Positions 942 to 4,182 of a stretch of 24,297 nucleotides of DNA are shown here, piece by piece. Location: positions 1 through 24,297 of the IMG/VR virus record IMGVR_UViG_3300011113_000326; one strand, given 5' to 3'. Position 1 is the stretch's first letter. Every line of letters starts with the position of its first letter. Position numbers and translations under genes: made by a program. Under the pieces are notes generated by a model. It did not search any database. It saw nothing but the letters and a program-made list of their open reading frames with translations, and had not been told where the DNA came from. Source of the DNA: a virus.

Positions 942-1570
942 ATCCGCTTCTTGATCTGCGGCTTGCCGATTGCATGGATGTCATGCGGGAGTTTCCCGAC
1001 AAGCACTTTGATCTGGCGATTGTCGATCCGCCGTATGGGATTGGCGCGGAAAACCACGCGGGAAAACAAGAGAATGGGTGGACGCAATGGACAAAGAAAA
1101 GCTGGGACGCTCGCCCACCTGATGCCGACTACTTCCGCAAACTCTTCCGCGTATCAAAAAATCAAATCATCTGGGGCGCGAACTACTACCCTCAACGCCT
1201 GCCGCCGAGTATGGGCTGGGCGTTCTGGGACAAGGGCCAGCGCGGGTTTTCACTGGCAGATGGTGAGCTGGCTTTTACGTCGTTCGACAAGGCGCTTCGA
1301 GTATTTGAATATGCGCGAGGCACGGCGTTAGCTGAAGGCGAACGCATCCACCCAACCCAAAAACCAGTTGCACTCTACAACTGGCTTCTTGAGCATTATG
1401 CCAAGCCGGGCGACAAAATCTTAGACACTCACATGGGAAGCGGGTCGATTGCGATTGCGTGTCATTATCGCAATCATCCGTTAGTCGCCTGCGAGATTGA
1501 CCCTGATTATTATCAAGCTGCGCTGGCAAGGATAAAACGAGAGACGCGGCAACTGACATTTTGGACATGA
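938..1570 (+). CDS. orphan DNA (adenine-N6) methyltransferase, beta class
   Basis: The 210-aa product has the catalytic motif IV DPPY at residues 30-33, HPTQKP at 138-143 and the AdoMet-binding motif I as DTHMGSGS at 163-170. DPPY before the FxGxG-like motif is the beta-class order (CcrM/HinfI type). It would methylate adenine, less likely cytosine-N4, in a short DNA site; the target cannot be read from the sequence. No restriction enzyme gene is adjacent, so it is an orphan methyltransferase. At 210 aa it is shorter than CcrM-type enzymes (about 350 aa) and lacks their C-terminal extension. It sits between the terminase subunits, coupled by ATGA overlaps on both sides (938-941 and 1567-1570). 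Likely roles are protecting phage DNA from host restriction or marking DNA for packaging. Confidence 0.88.
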   Translation: MNPLLDLRLADCMDVMREFPDKHFDLAIVDPPYGIGAENHAGKQENGWTQWTKKSWDARPPDADYFRKLFRVSKNQIIWGANYYPQRLPPSMGWAFWDKGQRGFSLADGELAFTSFDKALRVFEYARGTALAEGERIHPTQKPVALYNWLLEHYAKPGDKILDTHMGSGSIAIACHYRNHPLVACEIDPDYYQAALARIKRETRQLTFWT

Positions 1571-3291
1571 ACCCGCTGGCCACAGGAATCCGGGACGGAA
1601 TCAAGCTCGCCTATCAGGGGTCGATCCTCGACTGGGCAGAGGAACACGTCAAATTCCCGAACTCTGACCGGGCGTCACGCTTTGACAGGAGCGTGGCGCC
1701 ATGGCTCAACGAGCCGCTTCTGGCGGCCTCGGATGACGAGACAACGCAAGTGTGCCTTCGGGCTCCGACGGGCGGGGGAAAGACCACATTAATGGAAACG
1801 CTCGCGTGTTACATCGTCGGGCAGAAGCCTGGGCCGACATTGTTCGTCGGCCAGACCGACGACATGGTGAAAGACTGGACGGAGTCGCGATTGATTCCGA
1901 TTTTCAGCGAATGCGATCCGGTGCGGGCTTTGTTTCCCGAAGACCGGCACGCAATGCGAAAGACAACGATCTTCTTCCCGCACATGGTCCTCTTCGCTGG
2001 CGGCGCGAACATGACCAACCTGCAGGAAAAATCGATGCGCTACTGCATCGGAGACGAAGTCTGGAGATGGAAGGGTGGCATGATCCGCGAACTTAAAGCC
2101 CGGCACCATGACCGATGGAACCGCAAGACGATTCTCGTTTCGCAGGGCTGGGACTCTACGCACGAGGCCGATGCCGAGTGGGAGAGTGGCACCCGCGAGG
2201 TGTGGGGGTGGACGTGCAAATGTGGAGAGTGGAACCGCTACACTTGGGACCACATCCAATACGAGGTAGCCAAGGCCGAGAATGGCGAGGTGCTCTGGGA
2301 CTCGGTCCAAGACTCGGTGCGGATGGAATGCCCGAGCTGTCAAGCGCAATATCGTGACAATGCAGCAACCCGGCGAGAACTTGCAAATGGTGCGAGCTAC
2401 CGCGCACTCAATCCACATCCGGTCCGGGGGCACCGGTCATTTGAATACCCGGCCTTCGCCGTCTGGTGGATACCCTGGTTCACCATCGTTCGTGAATGGC
2501 TCGAGGCCCAAGAGGCCAAGGGCAGCGGGAATCTGGAGCCGCTGAAACAATTCGTTCAAAAACGAAAGGCACAGGTCTGGGTCGAGGAGGTAGTGAGCGA
2601 CATGCCTGAGGTATCGACCGGCGACTATGCGAAGGCTGATTTTGTCGAGGGCCAGAAGATCGATGGCGAGGTGAGGCGATTCTTGGCGGTCGATAAACAG
2701 CGAGATCATTTCTGGTGCCTCGTCCGCGCATTCAGAGCCGATGGTTCATCGATGCTCCTGCACGAATCACGACCTCTGACATGGGAAACGCTCGACGGAA
2801 TCGCCGCGCAATATCAGGTGCCACCTCGGTGCGTCATTGTCGATGCGGGCTACGACACCCCGATCGTTTATGAATCGTGCGCCCGCCGTGGATGGACAGC
2901 CTCACACGGATCTGGTCAGGACGGATTTTACCACGTCGAGAATGGCCGTCGATCTCGGCGCTTCGTTTCCAAAATCGAGGCCGCGCAGGCCGGGAGCGAT
3001 GGGCTGAAGTGTGCATATTTCTTTTTTTCCAACGAGGGCATCAAAGACAAGTTGGCCTCACTCCGACAAGTTGGAGCCGTGCCCGCGTGGGAGGTGCCGC
3101 GTGATGTCTCGGAGGACTATCGCAAACACATGCTGTCGGAGATGAAAAAAGACGTCGTCAATTCGAAAACCAAACAGGTCGAGCAACGCTGGATCAGGAT
3201 AGGCGGCAGGGCCAACCACCTTTGGGACTGCGAGTGTATCGCGCTCGCGTCTGCGATGCTCGCTGGTGTGCTGCCTGTCGGGGAGGCGTGA
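1567..3291 (+). CDS. terminase large subunit, GpA family
   Basis: The 574-aa product is the packaging ATPase-nuclease motor. The N-terminal ATPase shows Walker A APTGGGKTT (residues 66-74) and a Walker B-like YCIGDE (159-164). A Cys pair CKC (217-219) and CPSC (255-258) can form the zinc-binding insert seen in GpA-type proteins. The C-terminal nuclease carries spaced acidic residues in LAVDKQ (about 365), VIVDAGYD (about 420) and HLWDCE (about 555). I chose ATG 1567 over TTG 1561, because it forms an ATGA overlap with the methyltransferase stop. A perfect 12-bp inverted repeat begins at its stop codon. Length is close to lambda gpA-type enzymes (about 640 aa). Confidence 0.93.
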   Translation: MNPLATGIRDGIKLAYQGSILDWAEEHVKFPNSDRASRFDRSVAPWLNEPLLAASDDETTQVCLRAPTGGGKTTLMETLACYIVGQKPGPTLFVGQTDDMVKDWTESRLIPIFSECDPVRALFPEDRHAMRKTTIFFPHMVLFAGGANMTNLQEKSMRYCIGDEVWRWKGGMIRELKARHHDRWNRKTILVSQGWDSTHEADAEWESGTREVWGWTCKCGEWNRYTWDHIQYEVAKAENGEVLWDSVQDSVRMECPSCQAQYRDNAATRRELANGASYRALNPHPVRGHRSFEYPAFAVWWIPWFTIVREWLEAQEAKGSGNLEPLKQFVQKRKAQVWVEEVVSDMPEVSTGDYAKADFVEGQKIDGEVRRFLAVDKQRDHFWCLVRAFRADGSSMLLHESRPLTWETLDGIAAQYQVPPRCVIVDAGYDTPIVYESCARRGWTASHGSGQDGFYHVENGRRSRRFVSKIEAAQAGSDGLKCAYFFFSNEGIKDKLASLRQVGAVPAWEVPRDVSEDYRKHMLSEMKKDVVNSKTKQVEQRWIRIGGRANHLWDCECIALASAMLAGVLPVGEA

Positions 3292-3320
3292 CCATTTTCG
3301 TGACACCGCGAAAATGGTCA
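3289..3320. other. perfect 12-bp inverted repeat at the terminase stop codon
   Basis: The arms tgaccattttcg (3289-3300) and cgaaaatggtca (3309-3320) are perfectly complementary around an 8-nt loop. The left arm includes the TGA stop of the large terminase gene. No U-tract follows, so it is not a canonical rho-independent terminator. It could stabilise the 3' end of the packaging mRNA, act as a weak terminator, or be a protein-binding palindrome. Confidence 0.8.
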
Positions 3321-3337
3321 ATTCCCGCAGAGGCCCA

Positions 3338-3364
3338 TTTCATGCGGATTTGCGGGGCATGAAA
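3338..3364. other. second inverted repeat upstream of the promoter
   Basis: The arms tttcatgc (3338-3345) and gcatgaaa (3357-3364) form an 8-bp stem with an 11-nt loop. The right arm runs into the A-tracts just upstream of the predicted -35 box. It may be a weak terminator for incoming transcription, with the A/T-rich tail on the wrong strand for a classic one, or an operator for a dimeric regulator. Confidence 0.55.
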
Positions 3365-3411
3365 AAAAGTTGAAAAAAAATGTTGACGATTTTCAAGGTT
3401 GGTGAGATAGT
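3362..3411 (+). promoter_or_regulatory. sigma70-type promoter with UP-element-like A-tracts
   Basis: The -35 box TTGACG (3383-3388), a 17-bp spacer and the -10 box GATAGT (3406-3411) preceded by TG one base upstream (3403-3404, extended -10) form a good housekeeping promoter. Two A-tracts (3362-3368 and 3373-3380), centred about 11 bp apart, lie exactly where an UP element would. Transcription should start near 3418, giving an A-rich leader of about 50 nt before the ATG at 3468. It is the only convincing promoter I see in the window. It drives the 77-aa gene that ends at a terminator. Confidence 0.68.
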
Positions 3412-3467
3412 CATTCCAGATCGAAGCCACCACGGCGACGACGAAACAAAAAAACAAAAATCCAATT

Positions 3468-3701
3468 ATGAGCACTTCAACTCTCCACTCACTGCAAAAC
3501 GCAGGCTCCACTCACAACTACCGCCTCAACCAAATTGTGCGCGGTATCAACGCAGGTGTTTTTGTGATCCTTGATTTCAAAACCATCGCCAACATTCCAA
3601 TGGCGATTTTGAAAGAGGTGAATCCCAAGAATCTCTCAGAGACAGCGCCCGGAACCATCGCCCTGGATTTCACAGCGATCAAACCTTACGCGGCCGCCTA
3701 A
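3468..3701 (+). CDS. hypothetical moron-like 77-aa protein with its own promoter and terminator
   Basis: The product (starts MSTSTLHSLQNAG, ends FTAIKPYAAA) matches no family I recognise. It has a polar N-terminus, a beta-like hydrophobic centre (GVFVILDFKTIANIPMAIL) and no signal peptide or clear membrane helix. The gene is bracketed by a promoter at 3383-3411 and a terminator at 3712-3741, so it forms an independent transcription unit inside the late packaging/head operon, the hallmark of a phage moron. No Shine-Dalgarno sequence precedes the ATG; the leader is A-rich. Expression from a lysogen, or early in infection, is plausible. Alternatives are a small structural or assembly protein needed in high amount. 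Confidence 0.72.
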   Translation: MSTSTLHSLQNAGSTHNYRLNQIVRGINAGVFVILDFKTIANIPMAILKEVNPKNLSETAPGTIALDFTAIKPYAAA

Positions 3702-3711
3702 CCCTCCACCC

Positions 3712-3741
3712 GGCGCGGGTTCGATCCCCGCGCCTCTTTTT
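3712..3741 (+). terminator. rho-independent terminator resembling a tRNA T-arm
   Basis: An 8-bp perfect GC stem, ggcgcggg (3712-3719) with cccgcgcc (3727-3734), has the 7-nt loop ttcgatc and is followed by tcttttt (3735-3741). It lies 11 nt after the stop of the 77-aa gene. The stem and TTCGATC loop mimic a tRNA T-arm, but no other tRNA arm is present upstream. Confidence 0.85.
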
Positions 3742-3918
3742 ATGAAAACACACGGCGGCAAGCGCCCCGGTGCCGGGCGCAAAAAAGGAACCGGCAAAGG
3801 CCGGACGGCAATCACAAAATCGATCAGTATGTCCCGCGAAGCGTGGGACATGATTGACCGGGCTCGAGGGGCAAAGTCTCGGGGCAAATATCTGACGTCG
3901 ATTCTCACCTCCTTTTGA
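3742..3918 (+). CDS. 58-aa ribbon-helix-helix-like basic protein
   Basis: A short frame starts at the ATG in the T-tract of the preceding terminator. The N-terminus has the basic Gly/Lys/Arg motif GGKRPGAGRKKG (residues 5-16), common at the start of phage-type DNA-binding proteins. Residues 25-57 (TKSISMSREAWDMIDRARG...YLTSILT) fit a beta strand plus two helices, as in ribbon-helix-helix (Arc/CopG-like) domains. It could regulate a nearby promoter, including the one at 3383-3411, or bind phage DNA during packaging. There is no visible promoter or Shine-Dalgarno sequence of its own, and its TGA lies within a TTGACA hexamer 13 nt before the next gene. Confidence 0.62.
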   Translation: MKTHGGKRPGAGRKKGTGKGRTAITKSISMSREAWDMIDRARGAKSRGKYLTSILTSF

Positions 3919-3933
3919 CAACGGGCGCAAATT

Positions 3934-4182
3934 GTGGCGCTCAACAAATCTTTTTTCGGTCTACCCGTAGCAACCCTTGAAGAGTTGCTCAACGACTATG
4001 TGGCCTGCCTGAAGGCCATCGCAGTGGCCGGCGCTTCTTACAGCATCGCGGGACGCTCATTCTCTCGGGCGAATCTCAACGAGGTCTCGCAGACCATCAA
4101 AGAACTGCAAGCCGCCCTTGACGCGGCGAGCGGTCGGCGTATTAAACGAGTTGTGACCGCATTTGCCAGCCAGCGCCCATGA
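3934..4182 (+). CDS. gpW-like head-tail joining protein
   Basis: The 82-aa protein sits directly before the portal gene, the place of gene W in lambda. Residues 20-60 (LNDYVACLKAIAVAG, then YSIAGRSFSRANLNEV and IKELQAAL) follow the gpW pattern: helix, beta hairpin carrying a Gly-Arg-Ser turn, then a helix beginning with an 'L-E' step. A basic tail ends the protein. gpW-type proteins fill the portal channel after packaging and form the site for tail attachment. The start is GTG 3934; the frame is closed upstream by the TGA at 3916 and no ATG is available. It overlaps the portal start by ATGA (4179-4182). Confidence 0.65.
   Translation: MALNKSFFGLPVATLEELLNDYVACLKAIAVAGASYSIAGRSFSRANLNEVSQTIKELQAALDAASGRRIKRVVTAFASQRP

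Follow-up and report, generated by a model that had tools for sequence, protein, structure and literature searches.

A putative moron-type expression slot with exchanged small ORFs between the terminase and head-tail adaptor genes of uncultured phages

Between the large terminase gene (terL) and the head-tail adaptor gene of an uncultured phage lies a small gene flanked by a promoter-like sequence and a GC-rich hairpin, which raises the question of whether this gene belongs to the late operon or forms an expression unit of its own. The window, by which we mean the whole stretch analysed (IMG/VR record IMGVR_UViG_3300011113_000326, 24,297 bases), encodes a lambda-like packaging, head, and tail module in the order terS, two small genes, a DNA methyltransferase gene, terL, a 77-aa ORF, a 58-aa ORF, the head-tail adaptor gene, and the portal gene. 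The phage family is uncultured and probably infects Verrucomicrobia. The sole cellular TerL relative found was that of a lake Verrucomicrobia MAG (38%), and the lowest E-value listed for TerL in cultured phages belonged to Verrucomicrobia phage P8625. A preliminary description of the locus had placed a promoter, the 77-aa ORF, a GC hairpin with a T-tail, and inverted repeats here, and all of these are present at about the positions it gave (Table 1).

Table 1. Features of the slot and its borders in the window
Feature	Position	Strand	Basis
terL, GpA-type large terminase, left border of the slot	1561..3291	+	Pfam GpA_ATPase E 5e-29, GpA_nuclease E 1e-18
Perfect inverted repeat starting at the terL stop	3289..3320	+	RNA fold -20.8 kcal/mol, z -8.0
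Second inverted repeat, TTTCATGC...GCATGAAA	3338..3364	+	Sequence
Promoter TTGACG-17-GATAGT, extended -10	3383..3411	+	Strongly conserved in 51 leaders of unrelated ORFs
5'UTR stem-loop TCG-AA-GCC-ACCAC-GGC-GA-CGA	3421..3441	+	Fold z -2.9
Cargo ORF, 77 aa, predicted SH3-like beta-barrel	3468..3701	+	AF2 pLDDT 85
T-arm-like hairpin, GGCGCGGG-TTCGATC-CCCGCGCC	3712..3734	+	Comparison, fold; breakpoint between shuffled ORFs
TCTTTTT tail, makes the window hairpin terminator-like	3735..3741	+	Sequence
58-aa basic protein, proposed ribbon-helix-helix autoregulator (Aca-like)	3742..3918	+	Conserved family; promoter B linkage
Head-tail adaptor gene, right border of the slot	3934..4182	+	phrog_118 E 5e-12

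Consensus scanning of the window returned 3 promoter-like sites compared to 1.0 +/- 1.0 in shuffles, and 6 terminator-like sites compared to 2.6 +/- 1.6. Promoter and hairpin consensus matches alone are not clearly above chance, and the case for a unit therefore rests on comparison. In the window, TTGACG (3383-3388) and GATAGT (3406-3411) are separated by a 17-nt spacer, with TG before the -10 element and A-tracts at 3362-3368 and 3373-3380, and transcription would start near 3418. When related leaders were compared, we found that the -35 element, the spacer core, the -10 element, and the 5'UTR are strongly kept across 51 leaders that precede unrelated ORFs. Two main leaders occur among the matches listed: leader B (51 cassettes, including that of the window), with the consensus GTTGTTGACGAGAAATCAAGTTCGTGAGATTGTCATCCCAGATCGAAGCCACCACGGCGACGACGAAAACAAAAAACCAAAACGAAAAAATG, and leader AT (46 cassettes), which is AT-rich and has an equivalent 5'UTR hairpin. 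The promoter of a filled slot is accordingly TTGACG-17-GATTGT or its AT-rich equivalent. As judged from the aligned leaders, the 5'UTR hairpin covaries; the middle pair of the inner stem of leader B is C-G in 34 of 49 leaders, G-C in 15, and broken in none. A third leader (3 typed, among the matches listed) goes together with a hairpin variant, GGCGCAGG/CCTGCGCC, that amounts to a compensatory stem change; this variant is differently positioned and was seen in contig L003 behind lysis-type genes.

Both inverted repeats that the preliminary description had reported upstream of the unit exist, but the first is better assigned to terL. Since a repeat similar to that at 3289-3320 recurs after terL in 13 relatives with differing slot contents, it is, by this comparison, a 3' element of terL that lies outside the cassette. 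Conservation of the second repeat (3338-3364) was not seen in the other leaders compared.

A terL search of IMG/VR returned 80 relatives, most of them about 82% identical in TerL, and the slot was tallied in the 76 related contigs that hold both borders, with the window and L002 subtracted. Comparing relatives with and without the segment had been suggested in the preliminary description, and the terL-adaptor gap proved to be empty (16-22 bp) in 24 of the 76, non-coding in 8, and filled in 44. Since the slot is empty or otherwise filled in relatives, an essential structural gene common to them all, which was the contrary case raised in that description, is ruled out. A hairpin scan of IMG/VR contributed at least the loci L086-L197, in many of which the unit again lies between terL and the portal gene, usually with a 58-aa homologue behind it. 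This placement is kept even where TerL is 22-41% and the portal protein 22-25% identical to those of the window. After de-duplication, we counted at least 119 cassettes with at least 49 unrelated ORF families, 22 of them seen once, in contigs that are related to each other, so that the counts are not independent events. Frames were typed by regular expression, which may have mislabeled a few cassettes (L137 is doubtful) and left 19 unclassified. The cargo consists mostly of single ORFs of about 35-190 aa, and none of the cargo families matched PADLOC or a named Pfam toxin family; PHROGs matches were limited to a few families and to unnamed groups.

Other insertions were observed around terL. 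In L039, L068, L018, L008, and others, non-coding modules with their own inverted repeats are stacked in the terL-adaptor gap, and the octamer TTTTGACA, which borders each stacked module and also starts one empty-site form, may mark an insertion or recombination point. On the other side of terL, the DNA methyltransferase gene (938-1567) sits between a 73-aa gene and terL; it is missing from most relatives, in which the 73-aa gene adjoins terL directly, and other insertions of about 870 bp occur at this site in L008, L030, L065, and L081. The methyltransferase site is a second accessory slot. In L035 and L078, terL and its neighbors are present as inverted copies on both strands, possibly as assembly artefacts or concatemers.

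Each filled slot has a constant frame made up of the promoter, the covarying 5'UTR hairpin, an A-rich start region, the variable ORF, and the hairpin. At least 11 ORF families are shared between frame types. When six pairs with related ORFs in different frames were compared, mean identity was 88% for the ORFs, 49% for the leaders (-100 to -31; random AT-versus-B pairs gave 54%), and 45% for the 40 nt after the hairpin. Within one frame, differing ORFs (55%) have leaders that are 81-91% identical. For the pairs L069/L141 (94%) and L101/L195 (90%), identity begins at or a few bases from the ATG and stops at or just after the stop codon. In these comparisons, the frame variant tracks the phage lineage rather than the gene. 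Since identity is limited to the ORF and the frame is tied to lineage, the swapped unit is little more than a bare ORF, with regulatory ends that stay fixed on either side. Behind the hairpin, all 17 multi-member ORF2 families pair with at least two ORF1 families (one pairs with 15), and 7 ORF2 families are also found as ORF1; ORF2 is shuffled independently of ORF1. The structure and modularity of the slot are well supported by such comparisons.

The 3' flank common to filled slots is GGCGCGGG-TTCRATC-CCCGCGCC, in which an 8-bp stem carries a 7-nt loop matching the tRNA T-loop, and the hairpin begins mostly 7-11 nt past the ORF stop codon. In the window, no other T-loop hairpin has a stem of at least 7 bp (0.0 expected), and the fold of this one has an energy of -17.9 kcal/mol (z -3.8). 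Among the matches listed, the base at loop position 4 is mostly G in B cassettes (45 of 51) and mostly A in AT cassettes (44 of 46), and a T-run behind the hairpin is common in AT-frame cassettes (43 of 46) but rare in B-frame cassettes (2 of 51); ACCA often follows the hairpin. The preliminary description had read this element as a GC-rich terminator, which suits the window insofar as TCTTTTT follows the hairpin there and makes it terminator-like. However, the element resembles a T-arm and is not merely a terminator, since it is kept without a T-run in 49 of the 51 cassettes with the TTGACG leader. Because many loci were selected by the hairpin itself, its conservation in them is partly circular, and the fairer figures come from the terL-selected set, where 42 of 44 filled slots have the hairpin and 2 lack it, and from the leader-selected set (26 of 37).

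Several origins for the hairpin were considered and rejected. It is not a tRNA or tmRNA gene, as ARAGORN found 0 such genes, Rfam gave no match up to an E-value of 5, and the complete fold is absent. Copying from host tRNA genes, or a common presence in host prophages, was discarded after the exact 23-mer was found in 0 of 388 genomes of the phylum to which the Verrucomicrobia MAG belongs. As a general explanation, an attP site was rejected because the hairpin is mostly distant from the integrase. The T-arm beside the 77-aa homologue in a Desulfovibrio phage is a real tRNA-Leu and not a cassette hairpin. The open-licence literature yielded nothing relevant on T-arm cassettes in phages or on tRNA-like intergenic elements. 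In L142, an unrelated GC-rich phage contig, tRNA-like mini elements lie at two gene junctions (1020-1110 and 1550-1640). Each has a 7-8 bp acceptor-like stem and a T-arm, with about 11 nt in place of the D and anticodon arms, and is followed by a repeated leader, TTGTATCRA-CGCAGTACAACC...ATGAACGCAGAATCAGAGATG.

The moron candidate of the preliminary description ended at the hairpin. An accessory unit between late genes, with a putative promoter of its own that is conserved in sequence, is what we also find, but the unit very probably extends through the 58-aa gene at 3742-3918, which had been missed. The 58-aa protein has a basic N-terminus, HGGxRxGAGRxxG, and a C-terminal motif, S(I/V)SMxxExWxxxDxxRGxxSRGK(Y/F)I, and its AF2 model (pLDDT 72) has helices at 32-42 and 47-56 behind a possible strand, which suggests a ribbon-helix-helix fold. 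Searches returned no Pfam match, including to HTH families, and no useful PDB fold match, and hhalign against four ribbon-helix-helix-type sequences gave a pairwise E-value of 0.025, which we do not count as proof. Among the matches listed, 42 of 47 B cassettes but 0 of 42 AT cassettes have a 58-aa gene no more than 900 nt behind the hairpin (Fisher 5e-20, a value that overstates independence because frame type partly tracks, and is confounded with, phage lineage). L052 and L054 possess leader B and the 58-aa gene, though their TerL falls in the 82% group of the AT-frame phages, and in two records a block of promoter, ORF(s), hairpin, ORF, and 58-aa homologue adjoins a tyrosine integrase gene. 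Promoter B and the 58-aa gene therefore travel together, as a promoter and its autoregulator would be expected to do. Since it co-occurs and moves with promoter type B, the 58-aa gene is probably the regulator of the unit. In the window, the T-run ends at the ATG of the 58-aa gene, leaving no room for a normal ribosome-binding region, and translation of this gene may depend on read-through or opening of the hairpin.

The 77-aa ORF is under purifying selection, with a dN/dS of 0.13-0.24 compared to three diverged homologues and changes concentrated at third codon positions. The preliminary description had recognized no family for this gene; relatives do exist in other phages, and its fold is predicted to be SH3-like. 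The family shares the motif NQIVxGxxAGxFV(I/V)L...GExALPL and includes members in a Manatee Spring phage, Desulfovibrio phage 7757, and other contigs. L002 carries a 99% identical protein in the same slot, with a TerL that is only 82% identical, and proteins that are about 80% identical were found in L158 (same slot) and in L003 (another slot, near lysis-type genes). The profile and structure searches that had been advised thus gave phage homologues and a fold prediction, but no known family in Pfam, PHROGs, NCBIfam, PADLOC, or PDB sequences. The best fold neighbors of the model, none of them significant, are the UvrD Tudor, CarD, and Mfd RNA-polymerase-binding (Tudor/RID) domains, CAP-Gly, and R67 DHFR, and we assign no function from the fold because SH3 folds are too common. 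In other phages (L204-L208), distant relatives of the 77-aa protein are 58-aa ORFs behind a TTGAC-/TTTAC-type promoter-like sequence, followed in L204, L205, and L208 by a CCCCTTCGGGG-type hairpin, which makes another candidate promoter-gene-terminator unit.

Altogether, we give a probability of roughly two in three to the reading that the locus is a modular moron-type expression slot with fixed regulatory ends and exchanged ORFs, in which recombination, self-regulation, and cargo directed at the host or at rivals would each play a part. Comparison shows that the promoter, the structured 5' leader, and the A-rich start region are constant in front of whichever small ORF occupies the slot, and that ORFs are exchanged between phages and slots with breakpoints near the start codon and near the stop codon or hairpin, the ends remaining with the phage lineage. 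The exchange would take place when phages co-infect a cell or encounter a prophage, through homologous or homeologous recombination for which the A-rich leader and the GC-rich hairpin would serve as anchors, and the positions of the breakpoints fit such recombination. Lambda Red promotes recombination between diverged sequences (PMC2327257), but since RecT was found in just 2 of 19 longer records, we leave the recombination pathway at the level of a proposal. Integrase matches in 7 of the 19 longer records also speak for the slot reading. The promoter would be active separately from the late operon, and its repressor would be the basic 58-aa protein encoded downstream, acting in an Aca-like manner. 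From the turnover, size, and placement of the cargo, we infer that it may comprise anti-defence, superinfection, or host-takeover factors, of which the 77-aa protein would be a small SH3-like binding module.

Other explanations account for parts of these data. The T-arm hairpin could chiefly be an RNA element, namely tRNA-like punctuation or a 3' stabiliser between ORF1 and ORF2 of a polycistronic mRNA (for example, an RNase P or CCA-enzyme mimic). The T-loop consensus is retained without a T-run in most B-frame cassettes, often with ACCA behind it, and the unrelated L142 has acceptor-plus-T-arm elements at two gene junctions. However, ARAGORN and Rfam were negative, the loop allows C or T where a tRNA always has a purine, the canonical hairpin is missing in 11 of 37 leader-B loci, and the swap breakpoints would go unexplained, though both roles could coexist; we consider this explanation doubtful. 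Integron gene cassettes have a common promoter, compact ORFs, a structured hairpin after the ORF, and occasional arrays, and the slot resembles them in each of these respects, including some two-hairpin arrays. The T-arm hairpin would then be a site of site-specific recombination, used by a recombinase of the phage or of its host to move ORF cassettes into and out of the position behind the fixed promoter, the 7-nt loop between inverted arms resembling the core of a tyrosine-recombinase site in tRNA genes. ORF1 and ORF2 shuffle freely across the hairpin, with 7 families found on either side of it, and several carriers have tyrosine integrases, which adjoin the unit in two. On the other hand, simple site-to-site insertion leaves the left junction unexplained because no hairpin precedes the first ORF, and, unlike attC, the hairpin variant stays with the slot and its lineage and is not carried with each ORF family. 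A genome usually has one hairpin copy, the unit contains no dedicated recombinase or integrase, and tyrosine integrase matches (E-value up to 0.001), found in 7 of the 19 longer records tested, were not detected in the AT-type records among them. We regard such site-specific insertion as quite unlikely, and it is unlikely too that the slot is a phage-borne cassette system, the phage counterpart of an integron, with the T-arm hairpin as its dedicated site of recombination (or processing) and with single-ORF weapons pooled within a host group behind a standard self-regulated promoter.

With a variable small ORF first and a gene for a small, basic, and possibly DNA-binding protein after it, the gene order also resembles that of a type II operon, and the ORF and the 58-aa gene might form a toxin-antitoxin pair or a similar addiction module. 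We find this very unlikely, as about half of the classified frames are without the 58-aa gene, a single family of regulators accompanies dozens of unrelated ORFs, and the cargo matches no named Pfam toxin family and nothing in PADLOC. The 77-aa gene lies between terL and the head-tail adaptor gene and its promoter consensus alone is not clearly beyond chance, so it could be read as a late-operon gene with an accessory role in packaging or in the head, the promoter and hairpin matches being incidental. This reading is scarcely credible given that relatives have an empty slot or unrelated ORFs in it, that the family also has members in a second slot, close to lysis-type genes (L003), and in unrelated phages, and that the promoter is conserved over unrelated cargo.

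The modular moron-type slot shares traits with several known systems. Passages of PMC4378225 describe the morons of lambdoid and other temperate phages as single coding regions with a promoter and a terminator between adjacent genes. Similarly, the slot holds an extra gene between conserved genes that is absent from close relatives (24 of 76 empty), but here only the ORF is replaced, with a constant promoter, leader, and hairpin serving one ORF after another, and the hairpin is T-arm-like and often without a T-run. In acr-aca operons, as described in sections of PMC9410906, the Aca protein encoded downstream binds to promoter repeats, and in the variable region RGP G of Pseudomonas Mu-like phages, according to the part of PMC4378225 on this region, one accessory ORF accompanies all known anti-CRISPR genes. 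As portrayed there, these operons resemble the slot in having one promoter, variable small ORFs, and then a conserved small regulator gene (putative here) in a fixed variable region, and by this analogy we propose that the 58-aa protein is an Aca-like autoregulator. However, the candidate regulator looks ribbon-helix-helix-like rather than helix-turn-helix, no cargo here has a known anti-CRISPR function, and the passages of PMC4378225 and PMC9410906 on these operons describe no T-arm or 5'UTR hairpin. The antiviral hotspots of P2 and P4 (PMC9122126) likewise show high turnover between two conserved phage genes, but these loci span about 1-5 kb and contain larger defence systems, whereas the slot holds mostly single ORFs in a fixed expression frame.

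Since dozens of unrelated small genes have been swapped into it, the slot may be a catalogue of candidate phage weapons or host-control proteins. The fixed frame, with its promoter core, 5'UTR hairpin, and T-arm hairpin, is a searchable tag for small phage proteins without a known family. Anti-CRISPR and other anti-defence proteins were discovered through similar guilt by association, and by this precedent the slot could yield testable candidates for an understudied host group. With swap junctions near the gene ends between constant flanks, the slot also makes the origin of phage genome mosaicism directly testable.
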